A stretch of 64,000 bases of DNA from Lepisosteus oculatus. Its lineage: Eukaryota > Chordata > Actinopteri > Semionotiformes > Lepisosteidae. The notes under the pieces were generated by a model, which did not search any database, was not told the DNA's origin, and saw only the letters and a list, made by a program, of their open reading frames with translations. The position numbers and the translations under genes are program-made. The DNA is taken from positions 11,547,532 through 11,611,531 of the forward strand of contig NC_090718.1 of NCBI RefSeq assembly GCF_040954835.1, in the 5' to 3' direction. Shown piece by piece: positions 27,721-60,716 of this stretch; position 1 is the first letter of the stretch; the number at the start of each line of letters is the position of its first letter.

Positions 27721-28457
<737 letters not shown>

Positions 28458-31218: not shown

Positions 31219-31439
31219 CAGTTTTCTAGGACGTCAACAAACCACAGCGGCTTGTTTCAGGTGTTCACAGGGAGAAGCTGACGTGCTGCAAGTCGAGACA
31301 GGGAGGGTGTCACTGGGAGTACGGGAGGGGATTGGTCAGAGTCACCTCTAGCATGAACGATCTATTCTGATGAGCCTCCTGGTGGGGTGGAAACTTTCTG
31401 CTTGGCCCCCCGGGGGTGGAGTGATGCGGAGAGCAAGGG

Positions 31440-34400
31440 TTACTTGGCGTCATTGAGCTGCCTGGCCACGGTCAAGATCTCCTTGGCACCTTTGCTCAGC
31501 AGGAGCTTGGCCAAGTCCACCCCCAGCTTCTCTGCCGCTTCCTGTGCCAGGTGGGGCACGTTCCCCGCCGTGATGCCCACCCGCTGGGCGCCGTCGTCCA
31601 CCCCGTCCTCCTCCTGCGCCAGGACCAGAGAGAAAGGCACCGTCAGGCCCGTTGCACTGCAGCGAACTGGACTGACCGACCTGAGCCCGACAGGCACGCC
31701 TCACAGTGAAGGGCTGGGAATGCGTCTGTGCCTCAGCAAAGCAACACTCAACTGCTTTATAAAATCATAGATGCAGGAGCGGGAGGAACTACAAGGTTGG
31801 GTTTTTTTGGAGAAGTTTGTCCTGGTTTCTTCGCACACATTAGTGTATTCTATAGTTTTCTATAGCATAGTATTCCATCATACTATGATCTCTTCGCAGT
31901 TCTTCCTGTACCCACAATGACTGTACTCCTACATCACTACATACACGACAACTGAATGTAAGCTTAAATTGTACTTAAAACTGTACTAGTTGTACTATTT
32001 AATAATTTAATAATTATTTTCGCACTGTTTCGCACTGTTCGCCGTATTAAGTTAGCACTGATTTTGAGAAACACTTTTCACTATACTACGCACCCGTGTA
32101 AGTATAATGACAAATAAAGTTGATTTGAACATCATGAATTCAAATCAGGTCTCTGAGTTTGAAAGAAAATAAGCAGGTACTCTTTGACTAAGGAAACCCA
32201 CATCTATAAAAAGCTCTAGTTTTCAGTTAGTAATTTTCTAGTTCCTTTCTATGTTTCTCAAGAAAAGGAAATTTGCCAAGATGCCCCACAGACAAAATCA
32301 GTAACAACAAGCTACTTTTCACTCACTTGCACTGATTTCACTTATTGGCTCCAGTGTTCATCTCAGCCAAGCAAGTGACATTTCACTTATTCATTTCAGT
32401 TTAAGGGCAATATTAAAATCCCATCTTTTGGCCTAGTGTCCCATGGGACAGAATTCCTACAGCGTGACCAGTCTTTGGACTTCAGTCCCACCGACGGCCC
32501 TAAGCCTGCTGCTGGCGGCCCAGTCCCGCTGCAGAACCAGGACTGGGCCGCCACTGTTCCGAGACGCAGCGAGAGACCAGCATGCCGAGCTCTGAGAGGA
32601 GCACGAGCGGGCCTCACCTGCTTGTCCGAGGCGACGCTGGCCTGCATGGTCTCCTTCAGGCTGTCCGAGCCGTCCAGACTGTACACAGCACCCGTCAGGT
32701 AGAGCTGAAACAGAACGTCCGACAAAACCAGAGCTGAGACAGCGGCCGGGACACGGAGTTCTGCTCCCCCCAACAAGCCACACTGTCTCACTCCCGCGCC
32801 CCAGCAATCAATTCAAACGTTGGAAAAAAAAGACGCCCCCTTTCTTCAAGTTCCATCCAAACTAAACAGGATTTTTTTTGTGTTTGTGTGAGCCACACTT
32901 CAAAGTGTGGAACGTGCCGGAATGATCTGCAGTTTGAATGAGTCGGGCTACAATTCTGTGCCGGAGCACGGCAAGGGTCAGATTTGGGCCCCTGGTTTTA
33001 CTTCCGGAAGCACATGTTCCCTCCTGCCCGGTCAGTTTTCATTACCTGGGAGTCCTTGATCTCGGTGTGCACTGCCACTGGCACGCTACAGCCGCCCTCC
33101 TGGGAGACGGAGAAGGACACGGTGAGGGCGTCGAAAGAAAGCGTGTGAGCACCATATCGCTACACAGTAATAGACTCCAAATATTAAACATATAAGACTT
33201 TCTACATAAGTATTTAAAAAGAAAATAATGTGTAATCGGAAGCATAGTGACGCAGTGGTTAGCACTGCGGCCTTGACGCGCTGGGACCCCAGATTCAGTT
33301 TTTGGGGTGCTGTCTGCGTGGAGTTTGTATGTTCTCCCTGTGGTCACGTGGATTCCCCCCCCCCACAGTCCAAAAACGTGCTGGAAGGTTAATGAGTTTC
33401 TGGGAAAGTGGTCTCTGGTGGGACTGTATGTGCGTGTCTGTGTTTGTCCTGCGATGGACTGGTGTCCCATCCAGGGTGTACCCTGCCTTGCTCCCGTTGC
33501 TTGCTGGGATAGGCTCCAGCTCCCCCACGACCTGTAAAGCTGTTACAAAATGAATGAATTAATGGATAAATACTGTATAGATTGTGTTTTTATGCCTACT
33601 GTCAGCATAAATGTGCTGCTGCCTCACAACTCTTGGTTCTCTCTCTGATCCTGGGGGTTTCCTTGCAACGGCATGCTGGCTATTAAGTGTCCCCATGTGC
33701 GCCGATATGGTCTGGTGTCCCACAATAGGAAGGATTTCTGCCCAAAATCCAGGCCAGAGCAGGAGGTGAAAAGTGAAAAGGGCCCCGTTTCGGGATATAC
33801 AGCCCTCCCTGCTGCGTGTGCCGTCCGGGTGTCGCGTGGAGAACTTTACCAGGTACTTGAGGAAGGCTCTCTCGGCGATACAGCGCAGCACGGTGTCGGG
33901 GTCGTGCAGCACGGACACCATGTCCAGGATGTCTTTGTCACAGGCACGCACCTCCACTGCCAGAGCACCCTGAAAACAGGACACGGGGGTGGATGTTCTG
34001 AGCGGGCAAACACAACAACATTGTCCCCCCCCAGATATTTCCATGGTAACCGGGGCACTCAAAACAGCAGCTGAAATACTGGAACAAAGCACTGCCTGCG
34101 GACTGATGAACAGCAAAATCGTTTGACTATGGGAAGGATTAACCACACAAATTACAGGTTTGTTTTTTTTAACAAATTTTACTAAGCACAGAAAAATAAG
34201 GGGAATAACAGCTGAAACACATTAAAAGGAGCAACAATGACTGCCGGTTTGTGTTGAGTTACATTTGCCAATCATCCGGGCAAAAACTGCATGAATTGCA
34301 GGACTAACACAGAAGGATACGACTCATTCTTTAATTGGGGGAAAAAAAATAGATTCTCTTTTTACTTTTTAAATACCAAAAGCTTGAAATGGCTAACTAA

Positions 34401-37400
34401 CAAACTGGCATTTTACATTTTGGTGCCTGCCTTCATTTCATGAGAACAGAAACAAATGTACCAACCTGGCCAACGGCGTACATACAGTCTTCAGGACCCA
34501 GGACCTGCAGACGGGACAGAAACAGAGAGCCATTCGCTATTGTAGAAATCTGACTCCGGCCTGGGGTCATTACCCACGACCCGGCTGGGGTGATGTTTGA
34601 ACAGACACCTGCTGCTGTACATGTTCATCTCAGAAACAGCTGATAACATCACCAGCAATAACCCCTGGGCCAGAAGGGAAAGGGTCATTTATAAACCTCC
34701 ATTCATGGTTATAACATGGGTTGACCATGGCTGGATCCTTGACTATAAAACTCTCCATAATACTGTTGTAATTCGGGGCACAATGGGAAATACACCCAGT
34801 GTGTTTCTCCTTCAGTGATCTCCGGAAGTGGCCATTTTCATCACAAAACGTGACCCCATGCATCTCTACACGATGTATTTTCCCCCGTCCCCACTCCGAG
34901 TTTAGCATGCTTTCTTATAAAGGGAACAATCCCCCTAATGAAACAAAGTAATTGTTTAAGTAATTCCCTTCACATTTCCTTTGCTTTCAAGAAAGAGAAA
35001 CAAGTGCTGTAGAGTAACACAGGTGAACGTGGTTCCATTCACCCCCATCACGCCCCTTTAGGATACCTTACACGCACTCTCCTCCGAGAGTGGTGATCAC
35101 ACTGGCCCCCTCATCGGGGTAGGAAGGTACATAAGTGCATATTCTGTTACTTCTGGGCCCTTTGCCTTCAGAGGCTCAGGTTCCCCAAGTTGTCCTCAGT
35201 GCTAGGAACCTCCTGCTCCCAGACACCAACACGGTGCCTCCTGCTCCTACTCCATCAGGCCACCCTCTCCCACACAGCCAGCGCCCCGGACTCCCAGGTC
35301 CGCCTCCAACCCCCGACGTCCTCTCCCGACGCCGCCAGGTTGGGTCGCACAAACCCACACTCCCTACATCACTGCACGCCTCGCCGAGACCCAGCACCCA
35401 GTCCGTCTTCAACACACCCTGGCGACCTCTCTGGCGCCTCACTCTCACGCCCTTAGGTGTTGAGCTCCCAGCTGCCAGCGCACCCCACGTTGTGCCCCTG
35501 TGTTAGAGCTACACCTGCAAGGCTTTAAAACAGCAGAACGGCTGGGACCAGTACGGCAGACCAGCGTGAGAGCGGCTCCAGTTAGTGAACACGAACGGTA
35601 CTGGTTCTGCGAGGAGCCTCTCACCTGGCCCACGCGGTTCTCCCAGCCCATCCTGCGGAGCCCGGCGGCCGCCAGGATGATCGCCGCAAAGTCCTCCTTC
35701 TCGTCCAGCTTCTTCAGGCGGGTGTTCAGGTTCCCCCGCTGGCGGGGCAGGGGTCAAGGAAGCACACAACCCCCCCCAAGCGGAGCTCGGAAGCCCACAA
35801 ATGGAAAGAGAGGGAGCACCAGATCTTTCTGGCAAGAGGCAAAAGGCCTCTGTGGCCGGGTTTAAAAAAAGAGAAAACGATAACCTTAACATGGTCTGAG
35901 GAAGAACTTTGAGATGGCCACGGTATAGATTCAAATGTAAGTAAGCAAGGCTTGCAGAGCGTGGGATTGTTTTGTATGTTGTGGTAGACGAGCTGTGTGT
36001 TTCACAGGACACAGGAAGCCTCGGTCTTTGGGTCAGGAGCCTTGGGGGGGGGGGTGTTCTGGGAAGGATACGATATCTTTGAACTCCAGGTGAGGAAACC
36101 TCTTCTTCAGCTGGGCAGCTCGCCGCAATGAGCTGGTGCCAACGACGCTGTGCAGAAAGAGAGTGCATACTGTATGGACAGTCTTTTTAACCTGGCTGCT
36201 CCGCGAGAACATCTGATGTCTAATGCAGTGATGCGGGGTGCCTTTAACCTTAACCTGCAGTGCCCTCTGGGGGTGAGTTTTTAGGAGGTCAAATCTTTGA
36301 AAGCACAAATTAAGCAGACACATAAGTGCAACTGTTTCGTCGAATCAAGCTTTGGTATTTTAAGGTACGCTTGAAAAGGAGTGTGTAATTTTTCATGTAT
36401 TCTTAATTTGACCGCAAAACTAAAATAAAAGTATAATTCCATTTCTTTCATTCTATAGTTATGATATATCTTAGGTTTAAGGAACTGACCTACTGCAATG
36501 AGTTTTGATAAGGGGTGCAGAGAAACAGAGGGGTGCAGGCTGCAGTAAAGGTTAAGACCACTGGCGTAACACGAAACATATCCTGCCACCTCCCCCTAAG
36601 AACATAAAGTTCACAAACGAAGAGGATGCTGTTTGTCCCGCCTAGCACATTTTGTAGAAAGTATTTAATAGTTTCAAGGGTCTCCAGTTGTTTTGTGAAA
36701 GAAGCCAGGTCATTGACTTCAGGAACATGGTTAGGCAGCTTGTTCCCACAACCCTTTCGCAAAGAAGGCTTTCGATTTTTAAATGCACTTCAACCAAGTT
36801 TTCACTTCTGCCCTCTAGTTCCTGTTTCACTGTTGAATCTGAAAAGGTCCCTGCCTTCATTCATGTGCTTTGCTGGTATTTCATTCCTGCTCTGTGAATG
36901 AGAGGGTCTGAAGTTCGCCCTGATCTCCAGCCCGTTACTTACCTCTTCTCTGGAAGAGTGCCCAGGGTTTTCCCAGCATTCTTCGGGTGAAGAACCACTG
37001 CATCATGGGGATTTTCACGCCTGAAAGCAGTTATCCATCAGGGTGAGGGTTCAATGGGACAGGGCGTGCCAGAAATAAAAATCACAAAATGGTCTACAGT
37101 GAAAGGAAGTAAAACTGTTACTTAACTTCTTTTACTTGAAAAGCCTCACATTTGGAAGTTAACCTCTCTGTTTTACGGAATGAGGCTCCTTATTTTCAGG
37201 GTAATAGAGCCTCAGATAAGGTATATTTGCTAGTACCTCTTCACTGTTCCTGTGAGATGAGTGTGATTTACCAAAAATATTCACATTTGTGTCTCATTTC
37301 ATAAACTGGTCCAAAAAGAATTCTCACTTCAAATCACATTCAATTACTTTTTAAAAAAACAACTGACCGGGCAGTTTTTGATTTACAGCCCAGTTCAAGA

Positions 37401-40400
37401 TCTCGCAGTTTGGGATACTGCCCAACTTCTAGTGAGAACCTAACTCCTCAAGTCTTCTGGGACAAAGATGCGGTTTTGCAAGGACGTTTACAGGCTCCAT
37501 AATGCCCCACTCTTCTGTCTGAGGTCGTCCATGTCGATCTAGTTACTCACTTGAGCACAGCTCCGATGGTGAAGCCAGGAGGCAGAGAGGTGGGCAGGTC
37601 CTTAAGGGAGTGCACAACCAGGTCCACCCTGTGAGCAACACACATGGAGGAAGAGGCTTAACAGAATCAGAGAGTCACACAGCAGCCCAGACCAAACCTT
37701 CTGCACTTTACTCTCCATGTTGTGCAAAAACACTTGTTGCAAAAAAGATCAGAAAGCACACAGGCACGCATTGAAGCCTTATTTTAAAATAACTGGTTGC
37801 CATCGTATAGTACTAAACATCCCAAAGGAACCCCCACAAAAATCCCATTTCACCCATTGAAATGCAGCAGCAACTGGGTGCCGACTGCCATACTGCCCCA
37901 GCAGTCCCACTACATAGCCGATCAATTGGGAGGAAATTACATCACCAAGTTGAATTAAGGAAGAAACTACAGGGCCCAGACAGCCAGGACCCCCAGATTT
38001 ACACACTGCCACCAGATCTGTAAAGACCAAACCGTCGAGACTTCTGTATAACTTATCTGAAGGACGCCACCTTCTACAGTGCAGTGTCCCAGGTCACCAT
38101 ACTGGGCCAATGGGTTGGAACTTCTGGTTCAGGGGTGTGAAGAACCCCCTACTGGTCCAGCAGCATAATGGTTTTCTAAGATCTCCCATCCCTGAACTGA
38201 CCGGTACTTGGTTAGGTTCCGAGATCTTGATAACACTGCTATCAGTCTTGGTAACGAGAGGATCAGTTTGAAATTCAAGGTTTTAAATGGTCTTAAGCAT
38301 ACAGGCCCTGTACATAAGGAGCCTTACTCGTTCCTCTCCAAGGCGTTCTCCAGTTCCTTGGTGAAGAGGCTTTTCTCTCCAATCTGAAACACACAAACCA
38401 ACAACTCCATATCAACGGGTCATAGTTAAACTGAAATCCTGACACTCGTATACAGAACACCATTCCAGACTTTTATGAATTCCAAAAAGATCTGATGATC
38501 ATTACCTTTTCAAAATCTATGAATGCTGGCTGAAGACCAAAACTAAGGTTACAATTTGATTTTTCCCCAATATCATACTGTTTCACTATCTGAGATTCTG
38601 TAAGCATTTTCCTGGTTAAATTGTACAGATAAAGGAAAGGCCCAGGGAGAGCTCCAGTCCAGTAGGTCACTATTAAATCAATCTATTTCTAAAGATATGG
38701 AATGATCCCACTGAGATCAGCTGTTACACCAAGTAATTTAAGAGATAATTTCAGGCTCAAATCAAGGTCCTCTTCAGCTCTTGAGGACCAGAGTTCTGTT
38801 ATTTGAACAGATTACTGGTTTGATTCATCAATAGCTTACAGGCTTTGCCAATTTTTCCCAAAACAGACAAACAGTCCTTAAGAATTCGACTAAGTGGATT
38901 GAGGCTCTCCATGACCAGGGTTAGACAGCCCTGCAATAGAGGCAGCAAAACAGGACTTGTATTAATGTACTCACACTGACAGAGAACCATTTCCAAGCAG
39001 GTGTTCAAACAACAATCTTACATTTGTTATTAGGTAGCAATTATTACCCAAAGGGCTAATTCGTAACCAAGTCACATGGCAGATATCCAGTATGATCCTT
39101 GTAACAAATTAGGGAAATCCAAATTGCTTGTGTACTGTAGTGCTGGGGCAGTGACAAAAAAAGCTCACCTTTGACAAAGCCGTATCCAGGATTTTGTCCC
39201 CAGTCGTTGACATGGCAACTGGCACAGGAAAAAAAAACCAAGGTGAACACAGCAACGATACACCAGGAAACCAAACCCCGAGACACCAGGACAGTCAGCA
39301 GATGGCTGATTTCCTGAGCGTTTAAAGATCAAGGCTTAACGTTTTAAAGTCAAGGTACTGCCCCAAGAAAATGTACAAGCAGCAGATGGAAAGAGTTTTA
39401 AGTTTGAGCCCTGTCTGAGTAACAAGTGTCTGAAAATTAAATATGCTAAAGATGCTTTTGTGGCTCATAAGCAAGGATATGTTACTCAGCTGTAAGTGCA
39501 TTATATTGAGTCTGAATTGTACACTGCATTTGTAACTATATGTGGATAAAATGTCTAAATTGCACATTAATGAAAAGACTGTTCTTTCAGTCCTTCCTTT
39601 CTTTCTTTCTTTTCTGTCTAAGGAATGACACCTCTTCCTCGCACTTGCAGTAACATAGGAACTGTGGGATGACCCAGGCAGTCACAGCGAAAGAAAAGAT
39701 AGGAAACTGAACTGCGCCCGATTCTTCGCAGCACAATCAGCTTTCTTGTGAAGCACACAGACTTCCCCTTATTAACTGGAAGTGAGACAGTTTGCTGGTG
39801 GAAATCCAGAACATCTGAGTCAGCTCTCTTTGCAGGGGGCTGACCAATCGGAGGCGCTGAAGATCACACTGACAGAAGGGAGATGTCTCTTGTGGTTGAA
39901 GTAACCAGTTGCATCATTTACCGCTGTTCCAGAACCAGATGCATACTCTTCCAGTTTGTGACAGTCAAGTGACCCTCATGTTGGAAAAAACACTCCCGCC
40001 CACAGCAAAATATGGCAGGAGCATTTGATCAGCTTGAGCTCTTTTTATGCCCAAGGTAAAGCTGATGAGCACGTACAAAAAGCTCACTTTTTCACTACAC
40101 CTACTTTGGTCAATATGACAATAGTTAACTGAAAATAAAAGGCCTCAACTACCCGTCTGAACTTGCAGACCTCAATCCAATTGAACAGGTGTGATTCAAA
40201 ACCAAGAATGCCTTCACAAACGGAACCGAGAGCAATTCTGCCTGGAAGAATAGAGCCGAGTAGCACACGTACATTGGTATTCTTAATCGCGCTGATCTCT
40301 CAGGACATGCACAGCACAACAGACAACACCACACAATGCAGACAAATGGAGCACTAAATATGTTGTGGGACAATATATGTAAATAAATATGTAGAAGTGA

Positions 40401-43400
40401 GACAAATAAAAACATGGCAGACCATGCAAAAAGTGCATAGGGCAGATGTGTGTATAGGCACTGTCGTTAGCTGTCGAGAATATGCACTGCAGTGGGATAG
40501 AAGCTGTTCTTGAGTCTAACGGGTCCCTGCTTTAATAGTGCAGTACCACTTGCCAGAGCCAGTCCGTGGCCGGGAGTTTTGGGATCACGAATGATGGATT
40601 GGGCCGGTGCGCCAGCAGTTGGTGTGGATCTCACCGATTGGTGGTAAATCACATCCTATAATCGCCGGTCCCGTTGCCACAACCCTTTGTAGCGCATCTC
40701 TGACATGCATGGCAGCACCACGCAGCGATGCCGCTGGCGAGGACACTTTCTATGGTGCTGTGGTAGAAGCTCATGAGGAACTGCTTCCCCATATCGCATT
40801 CCTTTAAGCACCGCAGAAACTGAGAGCTGTTTTCAGACTAGTCAAATTAGTCCACATTTGACAGAATAGTCCAAAATCTCTCTTCAGAAGAGCCACAGTC
40901 TCGAAGTGCACTACAGGAGGGGTCTAAGACATGGAATCCCTGCTGGGGAGGATTTAGAAGATACTACAAGGGTGCCAATCAATGTGAACCTCATGTTCCC
41001 TGGGCTTTTTAGACTCTCTATGAAGCTTATAACTTTGCTCTGTGCCATAAAGATAACTGTATAACATGTGCAGATTTTTTTTATGCAAGGCATTATCCAA
41101 TCTGTCAACCGTCTTGTTCGACGATCTTATTAGTTCCTATTTGGGGTTTAGAACACATCTGGGAGAGCCTGTACTGGGGATGCTGTCTCTCTCAGGGTGT
41201 GGCCTGCCCTCACCGATCTCGAGTTGCACCTCAGGGTAGAGTTCCTTCAGCTTCTCTGCCACACTGTCGGTCTGAATCCGAGCCAGCTGAAAAACAGCAG
41301 CACACACATAAAAATGAGCCAAACAAAGAAGGGCAGTGTCGCCCATTCACAGGATGTCCAGTCTAAATCCAGGCAGTGCAAACCCACTCCAGCATCCCAG
41401 ATCGTGTGTTCTTCACCGAGTTAGTACCTGGGCGATAGCAAACACCCTTTTACAGTGAATAGGGTGGATGAATCTTTTTATGACTACAAATGTATTATTG
41501 AACAGAAACAAAACCATGCTTTAATCTTCTTATATAGAGCAAAACCATTTTTTGAGAACTATCTAAAAATGATACAAGGAACTAAATTCTGCAAAGGATA
41601 GCTTTTAAAATAATCTTCTGTTTTTCAAAATCCCTGCTCCGTCACATATTGCCATATCCTACTCCTTGCATGCAAACACTGAAAATATATGAACTGTAGA
41701 CAATTAAAAGTTGTTGCTCAAGTTGCAAAAAAAACTATTGCATTAACTAACATCTGTCTTTTATCCAACTTTTTTCATCACAAAGGATACCAAGCGGGGC
41801 TTTACACACACAGAAGACTGACTTTGTGCCAACTAAAATCCAGCCCTCACTACACAGCAGGCAGAGATGTGAGAAATTAAAGGGGAAGCTAACACCCTTA
41901 ATTAATTAAGATGGCCAGATTGTGTAAAATGAAGCCAGGACTCTGGGGTTACACCACTAGAACCCTTATGAACAAGGCCACAGGATCTTAGTAACCAAGA
42001 AGATCTCTTTCTGAACATAACTGGACCACCAACCCAATGTTTTCTGAAGACATTCCCTTCCCTTAGCTACTGCCGAGATCAGGCTCGAAGTTGATAAAGC
42101 TGTAAAAAGCATTACTCCTGTAATATTCGAGCCCCTGATATACAGTTTTTATATACCAGTAAAAAACTGATCCTGTACAAAGGAATGGTGTCAGATAACA
42201 CCTCTATCTCACTCTCTGGAGTTTAAGTCAAACCATTTGTGCATTGAAGAGACTCCATGTTATCTGCAAAGACAGAGTGGCATGGCTTCATATCTGATTG
42301 CACAGCCCTGTCCCTCCCTCTCTCTGAAGAAAAAAGCGCTAAAATTTGACAGAAAAGTCAATTTTTGCTTGAATTCCACTGATCATTCCATTTCAACTGC
42401 TTTCCAATTCTAAAACTTTAGCCCGGGTTAAGGATTTTTGTAGGTAAAATAACACCTCCACCAGTGTTCCCCCAACTGAAAACAACTCAAACAACTCACT
42501 ATCTTGGGAAGATACTAGTTGAGTGTGGGGCAATATTAAATACTCAGAAGCTCGTCGGGAAACAATATTGGGGTCACAAGGATATGAACTGAAGATTCCT
42601 GTTGCAGGAGTGTCCCCAATATAGTTCACTACAAATAAATTACAACCACAGCATGAGGAGAATATGCTCATCAACCTTGGTCTCTTCTGGTTTTTGTTAC
42701 AGCTGTGCTTTTAAATAGTGAAGCCAACTGATCCATGGAACTGATCTTCTGACTTACCGATCATTGTAAACAACTTCCACACTCAATGTTCGGATTTACA
42801 AAGACTTCTGCTTGTTGTTACAGGACAAATTGATCTAACAAATCCATCCATGTTTTTTATTTGTAATAAACACTCTTCCATTTCTGGCTAAACAACTTTA
42901 TAAGATGTTTATAAGACCAATGGTGATAACCACTCACAGGTGTATCTGACACTTCCTACCACTAAGGCTAAATAGTTCTCAACGGACGGGGAAAAATAAA
43001 TATCTTAACTAGAGAACAATTTGCCTCAGGTGATTGCTCGTCACGAAAATCAGAAGACTGGTGATCTTCCAGGAAAAGAGAGAAAAGGATACATTTTTCA
43101 AAGAAACAAAAAAAGATGATAACATCTAAAGATCTATACTGTACCTGGCTCTTCCTGGTTCCCATCCGTATGACTTGGCTGGCTTTTCCGTTCCCATCCT
43201 GCAAAGGAAGGGAAAGACAAGATCCCTCTGAGGTGCTGAACTCACATGGCGAATGCAGTGCCACTGACAGAACACAACCCTTCCCTCGCGATGAATTAAA
43301 ACATGTGGGGGGGCACCGATAATTCAAACGCACTGGTAAAACAGAAGCATTTTCAACCTCAATCCACATTTAAGAAGCCTGCTAATATATCCAACCCACT

Positions 43401-45017
43401 AAAGAGATGGATCCCGTTTACTGCAGCAATGAACAAGCAGCTCTTGCAGTAAGTACTCTGCCTCACATTCCTTAACATCGAGAGACCCTCTCATCGCAGC
43501 TTATTTTACTTACCCTTGTGGATTTAGGAACCCCGTTCTCCATTGTTCCCGAGAGCAAATCGCCGTTTTATTAACAGGAATGAAGGAACGACAATTTCCC
43601 CCGTCTCTAGCAGAGAGCAGTGCTGAAAAGAGGGAAGCTGACTGGAGAGAACAGTGTCTAGCCCTGTGTGCCTGTGGGTTCTTCACCGCCCACCCCTGGC
43701 TGCTGCTGATAAGACAGTACTGTCGATTCATGGCAGCCGTTGGAGAGGGTAGGGAGGAGCACCTGGACCTTCTACAGATCAGTACATTGTAGCAAAAAGA
43801 CTTGGGGGGGGGGGATTCATAGAGAGGTGAATAACTTAAAAAATACAAGCCCATTACACACTACCCTTGTGTTTTCCAAACTGCCCTCACGTTCTCTCTA
43901 CCAGATCAAGGTCTCTCCAGCACTGCGGTACAAGTGTTCAGCACCACAGCTGTGAAATGCTGCTCGGATGCACTACATTTGCATGGCACCTAAAATACTT
44001 TGCATATCCGCTCAGTGGTGATCTTGACTGTTCTGACAAGTGTTTAAGATTAACCCGAAGAAAATGCAGTAGAGATATGAGATCCAAGAGAGACATAACA
44101 TTGCACAATATGGAGGTGAATTGGTTCATGAAAGCGAAACAGAGTTCTGCTTCATTCAATATGACGTTTTTTTTACATTCCTGCTCTCTATGGCTTTGTT
44201 AATCTTCTCATTAAGTAAATTGGACCAACTGAACATTTTTCAAAGATCTTCAGCTGTCGACGATTTAACGAGCCCTAAAAAAACCTTCTGGATTCTAGTC
44301 TTTAGGTATAGGAGATGTGCTCCTTTCTAAGCGTTGTGTTCTACGTGTTCTCTCTCTATGCCAGGAGCTGGTCTGACTGCTGTCAAGAATGGGTTTAAAA
44401 ATGTCACGTATGCTTCCTTGGAACCACATGTGTGTTCTCATGACTTCCAAGTAATCCTCTCAATCCGTATTAGGACGTGCCATTTACGTAAAAGACTGCA
44501 GATTTACTTTCGGCACATATGGTTACGAAATATACACATTTAATTTCAGCGCAATTTATTCACAGTTTTACATCACTAAATGTGATGTAATGTAATGTAA
44601 TGTGATGAAATTAATGTGATCGCATGATTTATTAGACGTTTTCGGTTTATTTCTTTCTTTTACCTACAGATATAAAGCCCAGTTATCAGCACCATAAACC
44701 AAATGGTGCATACTCCATACTTTACACTCATAACAATCATTCAACTGAGTCATCTCTAATTGAACTTTTACAGTGTTATGAACAGGTCCTCTGTCTTCTT
44801 AAGAATTTATTATTGTATTCCCCCCACTTTGAAAGTTCTTGTTCATTTCAGCCGCCTACCAACATACAGGTTTTCTCGGTTTTAACCAATGGCAGCGCTC
44901 AGACACACAGATTGACATTTACAACAGCCAATCGCAGCTCTCCGAATTCAGCTCCAGGAACTTCAGGTTTCCGCGTGTCTACCGTAAACCCACCTGGGCG
45001 CCGGGCTCGCGTGACAT
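31440..45017 (-). CDS. hmbs: HMBS, hydroxymethylbilane synthase (porphobilinogen deaminase)
   Basis: The cytosolic third enzyme of haem synthesis, which joins four porphobilinogens into hydroxymethylbilane. Coding exons on -, in order: alternative first exons 44994-45017 or 43514-43543, then 43145-43198, 41214-41286, 39169-39218, 38328-38383, 37551-37628, 36943-37020, 36072-36147, 35625-35738, 34466-34504, 33850-33969, 33046-33099, 32618-32704, 31440-31613. Phases join throughout, giving 358 or 360 residues (human 361). In the 360-residue numbering: catalytic Asp98 in HSLKDLP, Arg148/149 in GTSSLRRAA, Arg166 and Arg172 in [10 protein letters not shown], and the dipyrromethane-bearing Cys260 in EGGC. 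All are one less than human numbering. The C-terminus [16 protein letters not shown] is typical. Donors after exons 8 (gtatcc) and 10 (gttggt) are unusual. The gene is convergent with H2AX. Two promoters are proposed in separate entries. Confidence 0.95.
31880..32135 (+). repeat. Retroposon-like 3' end with ATAAAGTTGATTTGA tail
   Basis: The segment contains the words CGCACTGTTTCGCACTGTTC and GTATAATGACAAATAAAG, ending in TTGATTTGA. I recognise the combination of CACT-rich words and a final AATAAAGTTGATTT as a common fish interspersed repeat. It lies in HMBS intron 13 in the opposite orientation to the gene. Confidence 0.5.
33238..33565 (+). mobile_element. tRNA-headed SINE with LINE-like tail
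   Basis: The head ACGCAGTGGTTAGCACTGCG contains an A-box-like segment, and the B box is degraded. The body has GGAGTTTGTATGTTCTCCCT, CACAGTCCAAAAACGTG, TCCAGGGTGTACCCTGCCTT and GGGATAGGCTCCAGCTCCCC, ending near GAATGAATTAATGG. These are classic words of a very common vertebrate SINE with an L2-like 3' part in fish. It lies in HMBS intron 11, antisense to the gene. A second decayed fragment may continue at about 33600-33730. Confidence 0.8.
35160..35505 (+). other. C-rich asymmetric block in HMBS intron 9
   Basis: About 350 bp are strongly C-rich on + with scattered CpGs. They contain an open frame of 123 codons on + (35135-35506) that is proline-, leucine- and serine-rich and has no recognisable domain. 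The composition differs sharply from neighbouring intron sequence. It may be a repeat fragment or simply low-complexity. I do not call it a gene. Confidence 0.3.
36640..36880 (+). repeat. Dispersed repeat, family R1, copy C
   Basis: It carries GAAAGAAGCCAGGTCATTGA, AACATGGTTAGGCAGCTTGT, CACAACCCTTTCGCAAAGAA and TCCTGTTTCACTGTTGAATC in the family order. It lies in HMBS intron 7, opposite in orientation to the gene. Confidence 0.6.
40430..40870 (+). repeat. Probable dispersed repeat in HMBS intron 3
   Basis: Words such as GAAGCTGTTCTTGAGTCTAA, CACAACCCTTTGTAGCGC and ACTTTCTATGGTGCTGTGGT, TAGAAGCTCATGAGGAACTG resemble an abundant fish repeat I have seen, but the family is not certain. It is diverged and interrupted, with no intact reading frame. 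Confidence 0.4.
43514..43543 (-). CDS. hmbs: HMBS alternative first coding exon 1b
   Basis: ATG at 43543 (on -) has a strong context (AACAATGG) and opens [11 protein letters not shown] good donor (AGG|gtaagt) follows in phase 0, matching the phase-0 start of the next exon (DGNGKASQ). Upstream on - lie CTCTTTTCAG, a possible acceptor near 43634, and a CACCC-GATA pair at 43686-43714. The exon can therefore be read either as the first exon from an erythroid-type promoter or as an internal exon. Confidence 0.7.
43686..43714 (-). promoter_or_regulatory. CACCC box and GATA site, candidate erythroid promoter of HMBS
   Basis: CCGCCCACCCC (43686-43696, KLF1 type) and CTGATAAGA (43706-43714, GATA1 type) lie 10 bp apart and about 150-170 bp upstream of the exon 1b ATG. 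The human HMBS erythroid promoter is known to use CACCC, GATA1 and NF-E2 sites. No clear NF-E2 site was found, only TGCTGA near 43627. The erythroid role is inferred from motif type and position. Confidence 0.5.
44581..44620 (+). repeat. (TGTAA)n / (TGTGA)n microsatellite
   Basis: Short tandem words TGTGATGTAATGTAATGTAA and related TGTGATGAAATTAATGTGAT form an imperfect simple repeat in the first HMBS intron. Confidence 0.75.
44994..45017 (-). CDS. hmbs: HMBS alternative first coding exon 1a (housekeeping type)
   Basis: On -, ATG at 45017 opens MSREPGAQ, with a purine at -3, and ends at an excellent donor (CAG|gtgggt). The 24 nt end in phase 0, exactly what the next exon (43145-43198) requires. 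The exon lies in a CpG-rich stretch with ETS, NRF1-like and CCAAT motifs 200 bp upstream. This is the expected arrangement for the ubiquitous HMBS isoform. No transcript evidence is available. Confidence 0.65.
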
Positions 45018-45209
45018 CCCTGTCCCTTCGACACCGTCAGCGTGGGAGAGAGAGGAGATCGGCTGTGCCGTGAAGGTTGTCCCGCTCTGTACGCGCTGAA
45101 CAGGAAACTGCAGCAATCCCGGCTACAACGCGCCAAGCTGTCAGAGAGGACAAGAGCGAAGCGCTAAATGAAAAATATTCCGTCCTCCTTCCCGTGTCCT
45201 CCAAAGAAT

Positions 45210-45253
45210 GTCATTTCCGGGGGGGAAGGTCACGCATGCGTGTTGCGCCCAAT
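45210..45253 (-). promoter_or_regulatory. HMBS housekeeping promoter elements
   Basis: TTTCCGG (ETS type, 45214-45220), ACGCATGCGT (NRF1-like palindrome, 45232-45241) and CCAAT (45249-45253) lie within 45 bp at the edge of a CpG-rich segment (about 44990-45250). No TATA is seen. This composition is typical of housekeeping promoters and it lies about 200 bp upstream of exon 1a. Confidence 0.6.
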
Positions 45254-45290
45254 GAAAGTGAGGACAAAATATTAGGAATAATTCCAATAT

Positions 45291-45392
45291 TATAATAATA
45301 ATAATAATTGCTTACACTTATATAGCGCTTTTCTGGACACTCCACTCAAAGCGCTTAACAGGTAATGGGGACTCCCCTTCACCACCACCAAT
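45291..45392 (-). repeat. R3 repeat 3' fragment, inverted
   Basis: It reads, on -, as the R3 3' end. On + it shows (ATA)n, then GCTTACACTTATATAGCGCT, TGGACACTCCACTCAAAGCG and the remains of the GGTGGTGGAGGGG block. The 3' tail points towards HMBS. Confidence 0.7.
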
Positions 45393-45507
45393 AATATACT
45401 GTCGTTTTTATAGCTTTTTCATTATTCAATTATAGAGACGGATTTGGTCATTATAATAGGTTAGCGATTTCGCTTGAGTTACTTCTAAAAGTAACACATT
45501 AAATATT

Positions 45508-45582
45508 ACACATTGGTGGTGGTGGAGGGGATCCCCATTACCTGAAAAGCGCTATATAAGTGTAAGCAATTATTAATTATTA
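45508..45582 (+). repeat. R3 repeat 3' fragment
   Basis: CATTGGTGGTGGTGGAGGGG, CCCATTACCTGAAAAGCGCT and TATAAGTGTAAGCAATTATT form the R3 3' end in + orientation. With 45291-45392 it makes a head-to-head inverted pair around a 115-bp centre. Confidence 0.7.
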
Positions 45583-52200: not shown

Positions 52201-55200
52201 TCCAAGATATGTTCTTTTAAAGGTCTGCTGCCTTCCTCTGTAAACAGCACCGTCGCCCTGCATTTCTTAACATTTTTCAGGATACAAAGTAAAAAAAAAA
52301 CAGCATTTAAAATTAAAATAAAGTCTTTGTCCGTTTCCATGGCGAATTTGGATTTTATTACTTCACAGCAGTATGGTAGCAAAAATTGCCACGTGTTTTC
52401 TGAAATGAACGGCCCGCGCTACGGTTTATTCTGGACCTTCGGAACGGGAGAAGAATTGAGGACGCAGAAAACGGGCCAAGAACCTTCAGAACCTTTTGCC
52501 AAGCGTCTGTGCGTGTATTCCTGAGTGCTCATCGGTCCCTTGGAAGACTCCTGCTTGGCAAGGCGGAGAGAAGCACACAGAGTAAACCAAAATGAGGGGA
52601 AGAAAGAAAAGAATCCGAAATCCTCTCCCTGCCATTCCAGGTTAACGCGGTGTTTTTGTGTTTGATAACGGAAGAGCAGCTTTCCATCTTTGTAGGAGTC
52701 ACCCTTCTCGTCTTAGCCATCTAAATGGGGAAAACGTTTCATGAGTACACGATTTAATTACCTGTCTTGTCAGTATTTTTAATATGGCTTGTAAGTTTAG
52801 GGGGAGGAAAATCTATCCTAAAGTTTAATTGCACAAGAGTGCAAAAAAACCTTTCTCCCGTCCCCAGAGTGAACAAAACCCGTCGGGCTTGTGAGACTGA
52901 ACGTGCGAGAGGTCCCCACGCGTGTCGGTTTTCTTCACCGCGCTACAAATCTCTTGTTCCACCTGTGGGCCAGAGAGGGCGCTAACCTGGCTTCAGCACG
53001 GCTTGACAGCTGACACCCCCGTTTTCCCTTCTCTTCCCCGAGGTGCTGTTGGCAGCGGCAGTGTGCACCAAGGCGGGCAAGGCCATCGTGTCGCGCCAGT
53101 TTGTGGAAATGACCCGCACGCGCATCGAAGGCCTGCTGGCGGCCTTCCCCAAGCTCATGAACACGGGCAAGCAGCACACCTTCGTGGAGACGGAGAGCGT
53201 GCGCTACGTGTACCAGCCCCTGGAGAAGCTCTACATGGTGCTCATCACCACCAAGAACAGCAACATCCTGGAGGACCTGGAGACCCTGCGCCTCTTCTCC
53301 CGTGTGGTAAGACGCCCCCCCCTTCCTGCCTCGCCAGGCGTCAGGCCCGACGCAGAAAGTCATCCCTGGTCACGATAAGCCCGCTCATAACTTTCCTACA
53401 GGTTTGTTTTAGTCGTTTGGGCCACCACCTAGAGTGGGACAAACCCAGCCAGGTGAAGTCCATTTTCTACATGGGTCAGAATGTTTTTTGCTGGGTAGCA
53501 GTAGTTGTAGCCAGTAATCTGCCTTTCCTTACCCTTAAATGGGGAAGTGGCATCATTGAGACAAGTTCCAGTCCTCCGGACAGTGCTAACCATCCTTTCA
53601 GCTTAAACAAATGTAAATTACCCCTTCTTTTGTTAATTAATGACCAGTTACATTCTGGGGCTTAAGAGGGTGTCCTGTTCTGATAGGCTACAGGAGCAGA
53701 ACCAAAATTCATTGCATTGATCAAGTCAAACCAGCAGACTTCTGAATGAAGAACCACAAATCAGAGGACACTAAGAGGAAAATATGCTGAAGTCCATTTA
53801 AAACTGAGAACAGGAGGCACTTCTTACCCAAAGGGTTGTGGGGAGCCTGGAACAAAATGCACATCCATGAAAGATCCATGCCAATGCCCTGGCTTCTTTC
53901 AAGAGACAAGTGATCATTAGATGAGCTAACTATTAAACCAGCTAAATGGGCTTAATAGTCTCCTCTTATTCGTAACGTTTCTTATGTCCTAAAACAAACA
54001 CACCTAATTCATAATATAAACACAACATATGGATTCCCAAATGTCTCTGAAAGCTGGCTGAGCTCCATTATCCAGACATCACTAGTTGAAGCCAGGGTTA
54101 CTAAAAGTGTCACCCTGCTGTGGCTGGGATTTACAGACATCGCTAATTGAAGTCTGGGTTACTAACTGTGTAATTTGCTGTAGCTGGGATTCCCAGACAT
54201 CACTGAAGCCTGGGCTAGTAACCGTGTCACCTACTACACCCGGGATTCCCCAGGCTCTGGTGCACTGGGTAGGGCTGGGATTAGCCAGAGCTCTTGCATC
54301 TTTCTAGGAATCAGCTACTCCTGTGACTAGCTGGATCCCTCTTAGGCTTGCAGTGGCGTCAGTGAGACAAGTGTCAATCCTCCAGACAGCGCTAACTGTC
54401 CTTTTGGGTAACGAGGAGTGTGCAGCACCTCGGGTAACGAGTGTCTCTGTGGGAGGGTGTCCGGGGAGCATCTCTTTGTGTCTTTTTGTCCTCGGCGGGT
54501 GTGTGGGATTTTTTTCCACCAGAGAACTGAGTCTTCAAACAATTGAAAATTGTTTTTAAGGTAATAAAAATGAATTGGCGAGTACAAGTTAAAGGACATT
54601 TTAAGTCATCCAGGAGAGATAACTTTAGGGTTTTCTTATTTAGGCCTACATTGTAATAGCTTTAGATATTTACTAAAGATGTAGTCTTAACCTGAATTGC
54701 TCATTCTAAGGATGGCTTAATTGCTTTCAAGTCTTATATCGAAATGAGGTAAAGAATTGTGATTCAGTAAGGACCAGTAACCGGCTTCAGACCAGTAACC
54801 TTGATCTGAGCTTGTACATCGTGATTGCAGAGATATCCCGATGCTTGTGCAGAGGTGACGTGAAAGCCGGGACGCAAATGCACTGTTCACGGCTCGCTCC
54901 TCCCTGCAGATTCCCGAGTACTGTCGCGTGCTGGAGGAGAGCGAGATCTCGGAGCACTGCTTCGACCTGATCTTCGCCTTCGACGAGATCGTGGCGCTGG
55001 GCTACCGCGAGAACGTCAACCTGGCGCAGATCCGCACCTTCACGGAGATGGATTCACACGAGGAGAAGGTGTTCCGCGCTGTGAGAGAGGTGAGGAGCCA
55101 CGGTCTTCTGCTTTTGTGAACCCATCACAAGATCAATCGGTTACTCAGGTGTCCCTTACCTAATGAAATCGTGAGCTTTGTTTTGGAACTATTGTGGCTT

Positions 55201-58200
55201 TTTAAGCTACGCAGATGAAATGATTTCAGGAAAATCTACTCCAACCTCTGGGCTGTAGACTGTTCTACAAACTAAAGGACACAGATCTCCAATCAGTAAA
55301 ACAAGCAAGCAGTCGAATTCAGATGCATTGATCTGCTGTTTTTTAATCGTTCTTTTTGCAAAGCAGGATGCCCCACTGCACATGTGTTTCATATTCGTTA
55401 ATTTGTGTTAATTTGATGTTGGCATTCCAAAACAGGTTGCATATTTATGCAACTTACGCAGCTGGGCATTTTAATAAAACCACCTGAGCGAAACCCCTTG
55501 CTGTAGGACAACCCAGTTTCTGAAACTGCATCCTGTCATTTGCAAGTCCAGAACACTGACCACTACTCCACATTGCTCTTTCTGTGGTATAATTCTAAAG
55601 TACAGGGATTGCGTAGGATTTTCATGTGTATAGTACTGCAGTGAAGTTGTTTTAAGTGGCTCAAGCATCATAAGAATAAATAAAAATGTTCTCGCGTTGG
55701 GAAGATGTGAGCCTGCAAAGGTTTGGTCCAGACTCCGGATCTCACTGTCTCCCACTCCCTTCCCTCAGACCCAGGAGCGCGAGGCCAAGGCCGAGATGCG
55801 CCGGAAGGCCAAGGAGCTGCAGCAGGCCCGCCGCGACGCCGAGCGCTCGGGGAAGAAAGCCCCTGGCTTCGGTGGCTTTGGCAGCTCGGGCATGTCGGGC
55901 AGCAGTCCCATCACCATCACCGACACACTCATCGAACCCGAGAAGCCCAAGGCGACACCAGCACCCAGCAGGTACCCGCGATCACAGCCTGCCTGGCTGA
56001 AATGTAGACGCATTGCTTGACGGATTATTCGAACAGAACGGACAGTCATGACACCGCATTGCTCGTGAGATCATTCAGACAAGAACTGATAGTCATGACA
56101 CCGCATTGCTCGTGAGATCATTCAGACAAGAACTGATAGTCATGACGCAGCTCTGCTCTAGAGATCATTCAGACAAGAACTGATAGTCATGACTCACCTC
56201 TGCTCTAGAGATCATTCAGACAAGAACGGATAGTCATGACGCAGCTCTGCTCTAGAGATCATTCAGGCAGAACGGATAGTCACGACGCAGCTCTGCTCCC
56301 GTGACCCATCAAAAGGAATGGACCGTCGTGACGCAGCTTTGCTCTAACACTCTTCAAACGGAACGGATAGCCTTGAGAGACAGAGAACCCCACATTTCCC
56401 TTCTTCTTTGGGAGGAGTACCAGGGTTTTTCTCCACAGCTGAGTTTTCTTTCCACCTGCAAAGCTCTGGGGCACACCTGTTGCCTGTACCTTGCTTGCCA
56501 GTGTTCAGTGGTAAAAATGGGATCAGTTTCACCTGTGGTTAGAATTGTGCTCTAACGTCTTACAATAACGTTTTCGTTGGATGTTTTGCTGTGGCAGGTC
56601 GAGCGGCCCCAGTAAGGCCCTGAAGCTGGGGGCGAGGGGGAAGGAGGTGGATAACTTTGTGGACAAGCTGAAATCGGAGGGCGAGAACATCATCCTACCC
56701 AGTTCGGGGAAGAGACCCTCAGAGGTGTCCAAAGTGCTGCCCCCTCCTGTCAACATGGAGAGGTAACGGGCAGCTCATGTGGCAGAAGCCACCTTTTCTT
56801 GGGTCGGTAGAGGGTGCACCAGTGAAAACATCAAGAGTGGAAGCACTTGCACGTTCTGATACATCAGTTTTTATGGTGTTTCTTTCTCAAGGAATTGTGC
56901 TCAGTCCTGCCTGTCCAAAGAAATGTTAAAGCTTCTAAACGTGCATGTGCTGTCATAGGGGCGGTTGGTTTTTCCCGTGCACGGGTCCAAACGGGCTCAA
57001 AGCCAGTTCTTCAGGTGATCTGGATGCTTGCAAAAAAACAAGCCACAGCAGTCCAAGATAGAGACTTTCTAAGAATGGACGGCAGAAATGAGATCACCCA
57101 CCCCCACCCCTGACTGCACCTGTCTCTGACCCCTCTCCCTGCAGCGTGCACTTGCGGGTGGAGGAAAAGATCTCCTTGACCTGTGGGCGGGACGGGGGGC
57201 TGCAGAACATGGAGGTACTGGGGATGATCACCCTGCGTGTCTCGGAGGACAAGAGCGGGCGCATTCGCCTGCACGTCCACAACGACGACAAGAAGGGCCT
57301 GCAGCTGCAGGTGAGAGTCCGCCGAGCGGTTAGGGCCATTTCATTTTCCCCCCCAAGCGTCTTGCAGCTCGTATTTGCATGCATGGTAGTTGCATCAGAG
57401 CAGGTGTGAAGAAGCTCATGTTTATGCTCTTATTCAGATTGATCTGGACATCAGTTTAGTTCGACCAGATTTTTTTCCCTAATAAGAGGGGCAGATCCCC
57501 TTTGCTGTGTGAAGCGGTGCTCGTTCTTTTTTTTCCTGCATCCCTCCCTGATTTCTATGACTGCTTTGCACAGACCCACCCCAACGTGGACAAGAAGCTG
57601 TTCACAGCGGAGTCTCTGATTGGCCTGAAAAACCCAGAGAAGTCCTTTCCCCTCAACAACGACGTTGGTGTGCTGAAGTGGAGGCTACAGACCACAGACG
57701 AGTCCTTCATACCTCTCACCAGTGAGTAGTGCCCTGGCGCTGGGGGCTTTCCAGATACTCCTGAAAGGAGCTTGTGAATCTCTCGGGACACTGGGCTGCC
57801 GTGCTATTGTTATCAGCTGGGTCCCACGCGAATCCTAACCTCCCAGGATCTGGGAATGAAAGCAGCAGCATTTAGTGCCAGCCAGTGCAGCGCTTGTTGA
57901 CCTTTTTCTTCCTACAGGACACTTCTGTAAATAGAAAATGTGTGCCCCACACCCACACAAATTACTGGCTTGAGCACATTGTTATTACTGTTCCAAACAA
58001 CGCGTGAACGCAACACAAAACTAATGAAATTAAGCAATATTGGATTTTGTTTTTCCTTTTTTCTTTCCTAAATTCTGCACCACACCTGTTAATGTCTCAC
58101 TGTGCCGCGCTTGAGTGTATTTCAATAGAGCAGTTGCTTGACAAATCCCGAATTTCCGGTCGGCTACCGAAATGCAATCACTACACGCAGTCGATATGCC

Positions 58201-60716
58201 AGTTGACGGGGTTTAAAATAGGCTCTTCAGTGATTCCAATTGTAACAGGCTCTTTTTGGCTGTGTTTCGCCTGAAAAGTCTCGAAAGATTCTGACAAGCT
58301 GCTGGTGGTGATCCAAGCTAAAATGTGCATCAGCTGGGAAGAAAAATTCTGAAAACAAAGGGAACTTCGGGCACTGTATCCTTCAGAGTTTGTGGAAGAC
58401 CTGAAATCATAGTAAAGGGGACATTTCAGCAGAGCCCAGTGGTCATGCTTGATTGAGTCCAGTGCCTAGTTCCTGAGATAATCCAGGTAGCCAGGTGTGC
58501 ACTGACGCTGGGTGAGCAGCGAGGGGTTGCAGTGGTTTCAACTTGCAACAGGCTGGCAAAAAGGTGGATGAGCAGAAAACAAAAAAAACAAGCAAACCCT
58601 CATGCGGTGCAGCCATTGAAGGGGTGGTGTTTTTGCATTCATTGCACCTTGTGGTAGAATTCTGCTGCATGCCTCCGTGATGAAAGACTTGAATTGTCTT
58701 TCAGATCGTCAGCCTCTTTGTCCAGTTCTAACCGGCTCTGATAATTTGGCTCTGCGCGGTTCCCCTTGGGGCACGGGGCCTGGTGGTTTAGAGTCCGCCG
58801 TTGGCAAGAGGAAGCGCTAATCGCTGTAATCGTCACTGAGCTCGCCGCTCTGCGGCACCAGGGGTTAAGCCACTGACTGTGAAGTGGAAATAATATTTAC
58901 AGCATTCCCTGTCGTCGTCCCCCCCCCCGTCTCTCTCCTGCGAGCTAAGTGAAGCCGATTGAGATTGGAGTAGCGTTTCTCCAGTTCAGCAACCATTAGA
59001 AGTCTCAAAGGCACTTACTTACTCAAAGTGCTGTACTAAGGGAATGTAGCGCAGATGAGGGGAAAGTACAACAGTATAGCAACACAGAAGGTAGAGGCGA
59101 GCTAGGCTGAGACCCGTGCATGACAACATGGCTTCAGTTCTCCGATCTTCAGCTCTTTTGGTCTCTCCGGCTGTTTATTTTTCCTCAATGTACTTAACTT
59201 TACATTGCAAACTGTTTTCATCTGTGTTGGTGTAACCTATTGTTAACCAAGGTCAATTTTGTGGGGGGTCATCTCAGTTCTTGATGTGCTCTTTTGTGGT
59301 ACGATGGCTGTGTGATTTGACTAGCAGACGTCACCTGCCCCTCCTCTGTCCCCCTGCAGTTAACTGCTGGCCTTCAGAGAGTGGGAGCGGCTGCGATGTG
59401 AACATTGAGTATGAGCTGCAGGAGGAGGGGCTGGAGCTCAACGATGTCGTCATCTCTATCCCAGTCCCGTGAGTATGCCTGGCCCCCACATGACGCACAC
59501 GCGTTCAGCATGGGCATGAGGTGCCCACAGACTCAACACGTCCACCCTGTTCTCCCATCAGATGAGACCTGAGCCAGATCTAGCGTGCAGCTTTCTTCGT
59601 TACCGTTCCACTCGCATCCTCTGCCTTCCCTCGTGCAGCCATCAGTAAATGCATGCCTGACACTCTTTGGAGGCTGTAGAGAGCAGAAGCTGCTGTGCAT
59701 CTCTGCACCAGCCACGCAGTGCGTAAGAAGCTCTTGAGTCACAGCGCTGGGTTTGCGTCATTTACTCATTCTTACTCAGATGTAGTTTTCCAGGATGTCC
59801 CTAAGCTAAGACATTAGGAACAGCCCGCGCATTTTGACATAGTGGCTTTTCAATCATGAGCCGACGCGTGAGTGTGGCCCCTGCCTCCCCCCCGCTGCAG
59901 CTCGGGAGTGGGCGCCCCCGTGATCGGCGACCTGGACGGCGAGTACCGGCACGACAGCCGCAGGAACGTGCTCGAGTGGTGCTTGCCCGTCATCGACGCC
60001 AAGAACAAGACGGGTAGCCTGGAGTTCAGCATCGCGGGCCAGCCCAACGACTTCTTCCCCGTGCACGTCTCCTTCGTCTCCAAGCGCAACTACTGCGACA
60101 TACAGGTGAGCCTCCGCGCCCCTCCCGCGTGCTGGCGAGAGTTGCCACGATTGGTCTGTTTGTGGTCACATGGTCGCAGTGTTCTGATTGGCTGTTGTGT
60201 GCGGCCAAGATTTCTCGAGCCTACCTCGAGGAAAAAAAGTGGTCTGAAAAAAGGGTAAAGACTGCAGTTAAACTTTAGAGAACTTAAGATTGAAGGGGAG
60301 TGTAGAATCAGTTTGGTGTAGGCAATAAGGTTTTGTAGTAAAGAAAAACTATTTTATTGGAAAAGTCGTGGAGAATTTTCGTGGAGTGACTGTGGGATCC
60401 CCGGTGTGAATATATACATGTGCTATGAGGTGCACTCATCAATACCGATTCTTTCTAACCCTGAAATATAAAAGTAGCGTAGTAGTTCCCCCTTTAAATA
60501 AGGTCCAGCAGGGGGAGCTTTGCTTATTGGAGGAAGAGGCGGGGCGAATGTTCCGTGGGGAGTTTGACTTTCCGGATTCCTGCTCTTTCCTTATTCTTTG
60601 CGCTTGGTTTCCCTCCTCCACCCCAGATTTCCAAAGTCACCCTGGTGGACAGCGACAGCCCTGTGAGGTTCTCCTTGGAAACGTCGTTCGTCGTCGACAA
60701 GTACGAGATACTGTAA
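49238..60716 (+). CDS. arcn1: ARCN1 (archain 1), coatomer subunit delta, 10 coding exons
   Basis: Coding exons: 49238-49240, 53043-53306, 54910-55089, 55769-55971, 56598-56762, 57145-57310, 57574-57721, 59360-59468, 59901-60105, 60627-60716. All introns are GT-AG and phases join into 1533 nt, 510 residues (human 511). The first coding exon holds only the ATG. The N-terminal longin domain (about 1-140) starts [21 protein letters not shown] charged helical linker ([20 protein letters not shown]) follows, then a Gly-rich segment ([13 protein letters not shown]). The C-terminal mu-homology domain (about 270-510) includes [30 protein letters not shown] and the terminal VDKYEIL. Delta-COP is part of the COPI coat that carries cargo from Golgi back to ER. 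The protein is nearly identical to vertebrate orthologues. The linker (about 180-215) is the most diverged part. Introns hold two minisatellites and retroposon fragments. Confidence 0.97.
49241..53042 (+). other. Intron 1 of ARCN1 (3.8 kb)
   Basis: Directly after the initiator codon. No coding sequence or clear repeat was recognised in it. A large first intron behind a minimal coding exon is a natural place for regulatory sequence, but no specific element can be named. Confidence 0.6.
53690..53985 (-). repeat. Dispersed repeat, family R1, copy D
   Basis: Read on -, it has GAATAAGAGGAGACTATTAA, GAAAGAAGCCAGGGCATTGG, TTGTTCCAGGCTCCCCACAA, CCCTTTGGGTAAGAAGTGCC and TCCTGTTCTCAGTTTTAAAT in order. 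This is the longest copy of R1 in the window, and it lies antisense in ARCN1 intron 2. Confidence 0.65.
54071..54252 (+). repeat. Minisatellite, period about 56-61 bp
   Basis: Three and a half units of the form CCAGACATCACTAGTTGAAG, a CTGGGTTACTAA-like word, TGTGTCACC, then GCTGTGGCTGGGATT. Units start near 54072, 54131, 54191 and 54240. It lies in ARCN1 intron 2. Confidence 0.75.
55481..55575 (-). mobile_element. tRNA-derived SINE fragment
   Basis: Read on -, GTAGTGGTCAGTGTTCTGGA is a typical A-box region of fish tRNA-derived SINEs, followed at the right distance by a degraded B box (GCAGTTTCAGAAACTG) and GCAAGGGG. It lies in ARCN1 intron 3. Confidence 0.5.
56010..56370 (+). repeat. Minisatellite, period 47 bp, about 7-8 units
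   Basis: Units read GATCATTCAGACAAGAACTG followed by ATAGTCATGAC and a variable CGCAGCTCTGCTCTAGA or ACCGCATTGCTCGTGA end. The five central units (about 56067-56290) are nearly identical and the edge units are decayed. It begins about 40 bp after exon 4 of ARCN1, in intron 4. Confidence 0.9.
60505..60519 (+). promoter_or_regulatory. CTCF-like motif in ARCN1 intron 9
   Basis: CCAGCAGGGGGAGCT matches the CTCF core except for one base (A for C in GGC). It is a motif match only. Confidence 0.35.

Follow-up and report, generated by a model that had tools for sequence, protein, structure and literature searches.

The HMBS gene on the minus strand of this window (the whole 64,000-nucleotide stretch of Lepisosteus oculatus DNA that was analysed) raises the question of whether one enzyme is made from two promoters, each with a coding first exon of its own. 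The housekeeping and erythroid promoters of human HMBS were reportedly described by Chretien in 1988 and Mignotte in 1989. We put at roughly 80% the probability that the gene has two tandem promoters, P1 and P2, with mutually exclusive coding first exons, and that P2 would be raised in erythroid cells by GATA1/TAL1/KLF1-type factors.

The identity of the gene was established by two Pfam families within an intact frame (PF01379, E 2e-83; PF03900, E 3.9e-21) and by a match to the human HMBS chain 7ccx_A (E 9.9e-175). On the minus strand the gene extends from exon 1a downstream as far as its stop codon at 31440. Exon 1a (44994..45017, 24 nt), the alternative first coding exon of housekeeping type, encodes MSREPGAQ and reads ATGTCACGCGAGCCCGGCGCCCAG/gtgggt at its donor (CAG/gtgggt, score 10.37). 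Exon 1b (43514..43543, 30 nt), the alternative first coding exon of putative erythroid type, lies 1.45 kb from exon 1a, encodes ten residues and reads ATGGAGAACGGGGTTCCTAAATCCACAAGG/gtaagt (donor AGG/gtaagt, score 10.29). Both exons finish in phase 0 ahead of common exon 2 (43145..43198; minus strand, 54 nt, 18 residues), which is separated from exon 1b by a 315-bp gap. This equivalent of human exon 3 aligns with the human protein without gaps and has the acceptor tcccttcctttgcag, its borders being tttgcag/GATGGGAACGG...AGCCAG/gtacag. Exons 3-14 (31440..41286, minus strand) were assigned from the open joined frame, the intron positions and the two Pfam families. Translation of the joined frames gave 358 residues for exon 1a with exons 2-14 and 360 for exon 1b with exons 2-14, with no internal stops, and human residues 4-360 aligned gap-free with the exon 1b protein. 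The original prediction that either first exon can join 43145-43198 in phase 0 held at all coordinates, both frames being open through exon 14.

Corrected for the difference in exon 1 length, the exons end on the human scale at 33, 87, 160, 210, 266, 344, 422, 498, 612, 651, 771, 825 and 912, with a total of 1086 nt. Human intron positions were read from HMBS variant names in the available part of PMC7464722, which made eight of the 13 positions comparable, and all eight (33, 160, 344, 422, 651, 771, 825, 912) were identical. The donor of exon 8, ATC/gtatcc (36066-36074), is unusually weak in this gene model and may reflect inefficient splicing or a different boundary.

One HMBS locus was found in the 1.2-Gb genome (813 contigs). 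A search of that genome with exons 11-12 returned three matches, two being exons of the present gene and the third probably noise (E 0.65, 29% identity, one stop). A single scan of viral contigs for relatives outside the genome gave 15 pattern matches, none of which was confirmed. Near HMBS, a plus-strand frame at 27990-28454 ends in SQEY (H2AX type) and was confirmed by Pfam as histone H2A; we take HMBS and H2AX to be neighbours in human as well. Plus-strand frames at 53007-60255 are presumably exons of coatomer delta (ARCN1); the frame at 59872-60255 matches Pfam Adap_comp_sub, and 53007-53378 matched no Pfam family. The frame at 1395-1793 gave a match below the cut-off to the SMP domain of C2CD2L (E 4.1e-4), a gene that we assume lies near human HMBS.

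The promoter and leader of exon 1a (P1; 45018..45290, minus strand) proved to be CpG-rich, with an observed/expected ratio of 1.00 (44950-45250) compared to 0.57 window-wide. The region carries CCAAT boxes (ATTGG at 45288 and 45253), an NRF1-like motif (CGCATGCG at 45240) and an ETS core (CCGGAA at 45220), bearing out the proposal that exon 1a lies in a CpG-rich ETS/NRF1/CCAAT promoter. Neither a GATA nor a CACCC box was found at 44950-45300. The 300 nt upstream of the exon 1a start hold two out-of-frame ATGs and no in-frame ATG, and an in-frame stop lies 108 nt upstream. Directly upstream of P1, inspection by eye showed an inverted repeat resembling a mobile element (tatagcgcttttc ... gaaaagcgctata) at 45295-45580.

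At P2 the CpG ratio is 0.48 (43500-43800), NRF1, ETS and CCAAT motifs were not found, and the interval 43544-43900 contains one GATA and one CACCC box. The CACCC/KLF-type box CGCCCACCCCT occupies 43687..43697 and the GATA site 43696..43713, both on the plus strand, where CGCCCACCCCTGGCTGCTGCTGATAAG reads as a CACCC box abutting CTG-N8-TGATAAG. The original prediction had placed exon 1b about 150 bp after these two sites, and we measured 152 bp from the CACCC box (43695) and 169 bp from the GATA core (43712, gene strand) to the exon 1b ATG. Sites co-bound by TAL1 and GATA1 in mouse erythroid cells are described, in the available text of PMC4702602, as having TG 7 or 8 bp upstream of WGATAA; the P2 site fits this composite spacing but does so without a full E-box. 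The strict pattern CTG-N7/8-WGATAAG occurs only here in the window on either strand. Since the looser TG-N7/8-WGATAA has ten matches in the window, the P2 site among them, the spacing by itself counts for little, and it is the combination of motifs that carries the argument. The CACCC box overlaps a GC box (GGGCGG), a possible Sp1 site, and binding by KLF and by Sp1 factors is indistinguishable from sequence. A search of 43544-43900 for an NF-E2 site or a TATA box found neither. The stretch at 43544..43690 (minus strand), which probably comprises the exon 1b core promoter and 5' UTR, is free of ATGs, and the RNA fold of 43514-43690 is unremarkable (z -0.06). An iron-responsive element in the exon 1b leader was considered and rejected, given that fold and the lack of any Rfam match in the window at the gathering score; in Table 4 of PMC3904948, as far as the accessible part of that paper goes, none of three teleost PBGD leaders has such an element.

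A GATA site spaced as in the TAL1 composite and adjoined by a CACCC box is the motif signature that we take for an erythroid promoter, and factor binding to it is predicted. The exons, splice-site sequences, phases, intact frames and motifs can be read directly from the DNA, and transcription from P2, the factors involved and the tissue specificity are inferred. As a prediction, the housekeeping/erythroid promoter pair is well supported. Related observations come from excerpts of two papers: intron 1 of PBGD contains sequence that is conserved among vertebrates and is accessible to DNase in human, with GATA1-KLF1 binding there cited (PMC3904948), and zebrafish klf1-klf17 double mutants have reduced pbgd expression (PMC10415360).

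We considered whether P2 and the coding exon 1b might be real but P2 mainly induced by hypoxia or cold, rather than a standing erythroid promoter. The P2 of zebrafish hmbsb is described in just this way in the accessible portion of PMC4432979, where every control RACE clone derived from P1, four of five clones under hypoxia came from P2, and the P1/P2 ratio in the cold was 3/6; the gar sequence has a single RCGTG core (ACGTG) at 43892. However, hypoxia also increased gata1a and alas2 in the same zebrafish study, so that more or busier red-cell precursors could account for the induction of P2; the P2 described here carries both GATA and CACCC boxes, and a five-base RCGTG core is common by chance. 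The parts of that study available to us also cite hmbsb expression as blood-specific and mention the human erythroid promoter, leaving the significance of P2 open. We regard a mainly stress-induced P2 as improbable.

The support for exon 1b as an exon was compared with chance. Scored with a vertebrate donor matrix, the donors of exons 1a and 1b ranked fifth and sixth among the 886 GT sites at 31400-45100, and the four donors scoring above them are the constitutive ones of HMBS exons 13, 7, 4 and 9. Exon 1b is the sole phase-0 ATG-to-donor frame in intron 1 (at most 59 codons, donor score at least 8). When a donor score of at least 10.2 and a full Kozak context were demanded together, five candidates remained on both strands of the window: exon 1b itself, another within HMBS exon 9, and three unassigned ones on the plus strand. 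Our null model consisted of 2000 dinucleotide shuffles of the 1.8-kb intron 1, which address chance alone and say nothing on the actual use of exon 1b. An ATG frame with a donor of at least 10.2 arose in 155/2000 shuffles, and in 22/2000 when Kozak -3R/+4G was added. A GATA-CACCC pair no more than 30 bp apart was found in 172/2000, and the strict composite CTG-N8-WGATAAG in 12/2000. The window itself holds three GATA-CACCC pairs of this kind, one of them at the exon 1b promoter.

These counts bear on the possibility that exon 1b is an open frame arisen by chance, the clustered motifs forming an erythroid enhancer within the intron that acts on P1. The excerpt of PMC3904948 does propose conserved first-intron regions as either an alternative promoter or an enhancer, but a Kozak start with donor and phase, lying downstream of a GATA-CACCC pair by no more than 250 bp, appeared in 0/2000 shuffles, and zebrafish, in the portion of PMC4432979 that we had, provides a precedent for a second coding first exon. 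We therefore give the enhancer interpretation little chance.

We then asked why an erythroid first exon would need its own start codon. In human erythroid mRNA, according to the available parts of PMC7464722 and PMC10577081, translation starts within exon 3 and yields 344 rather than 361 residues. In our alignment the position of this human start, Met18, is occupied by Ser17 of the gar exon 1b isoform, and the next methionine of that isoform, Met22, corresponds to human Val23 and falls within the Pfam domain beginning at residue 20. A non-coding erythroid exon would thus truncate the enzyme, and a transcript from P2 would need an ATG of its own. Such an ATG is present in exon 1b, as had been noted against the non-coding human erythroid exon, whose start in exon 3 agrees with the consulted part of PMC7464722; a human-type erythroid isoform, with a non-coding first exon and a start at the Met18 position, does not fit this locus. 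The exon 1b ATG lies in the context AACAATGG and has an in-frame stop 27 nt upstream (TAA at 43570); the closest upstream ATG is 188 nt away and out of frame.

It might still be argued that the erythroid transcript from P2 is real but is translated mainly from Met22 in exon 2, with exon 1b as leader, as the human non-coding first exon with its downstream start would suggest (PMC7464722, in the part available). We consider this very improbable: the exon 1b ATG has a strong context with 187 ATG-free nucleotides upstream, Met22 falls inside the catalytic domain, and the zebrafish start codon sits in the alternative first exon in the text accessible from PMC4432979. That exon 1b is instead an internal cassette exon between exons 1a and 2, using the acceptor-like CTTCCCTCTTTTCAG that ends at 43622 (pyrimidine tract 82%), is hardly credible and was rejected on frame, since such an exon would be 109 nt long and break the frame, and the exon 1b ATG would be left without purpose.

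In the model of two tandem promoters, the CpG-rich P1 would drive exon 1a in most cells, and P2, located in intron 1 some 1.4 kb further downstream, would be raised in red-cell precursors. The factors expected to act on P2 are GATA1, with TAL1 partners, through the GATA site and one of KLF1 type through the CACCC box. Transcripts from P2 would start 3' of these two sites, with exon 1b joined directly to exon 2 by splicing. Either first exon would bring its own start codon, and the two proteins would differ only in their first 8 or 10 residues. These residues lie outside the Pfam catalytic domains; the likely purpose is more enzyme for hemoglobin and not an altered enzyme. The functional maps of the human HMBS isoforms agree (r = 0.96 in the available part of PMC10577081), which fits a regulatory rather than an enzymatic role.

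We tentatively propose, at somewhat less than even odds, that HMBS of bony vertebrates ancestrally had a coding erythroid first exon, and that this was lost in the human lineage when the following exon acquired Met18, the old coding exon becoming an untranslated leader. If so, the gar locus, with serine in place of Met18, would be a single example of the older state; if, in addition, the source lies outside the teleosts, the coding erythroid exon would predate the teleost hmbs duplication. The results suggest that another vertebrate shares the two-promoter control of HMBS known from human and zebrafish, and they offer a specific, testable account of how the start codon of the erythroid form may have shifted between exons. 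They also name a compact GATA/CACCC element as a candidate; no established view is overturned.

The closest known system is zebrafish hmbsb, for which the accessible parts of PMC4432979 report two promoters by RNA-seq and 5' RACE, start codons within the alternative first exons and peptides that differ in their first ten residues. A coding alternative first exon is therefore already published and not new, and the housekeeping/erythroid layout seen here looks like a further example of the zebrafish-type arrangement. The gar gene likewise appears to have two ATG-bearing first exons, phase-compatible with common exon 2, and its exon 1b encodes exactly ten residues. Unlike zebrafish, with hmbsa and hmbsb, a single HMBS locus was found here, and the gar P2 is read as erythroid from its motifs, whereas the zebrafish P2 is described, in the portion of that study we consulted, as hypoxia- and cold-induced. 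The proposal that the locus mirrors the human promoter pair stood for its anatomy (phases, intron positions, motifs and CpG content), its erythroid specificity here being a prediction. Like human HMBS, as documented in the available sources, the gar gene would have two promoters with two alternative first exons, a first coding exon that ends in phase 0 and eight comparable intron positions that are identical; the human erythroid first exon differs in being non-coding, with the start in exon 3 and a protein 17 residues shorter.
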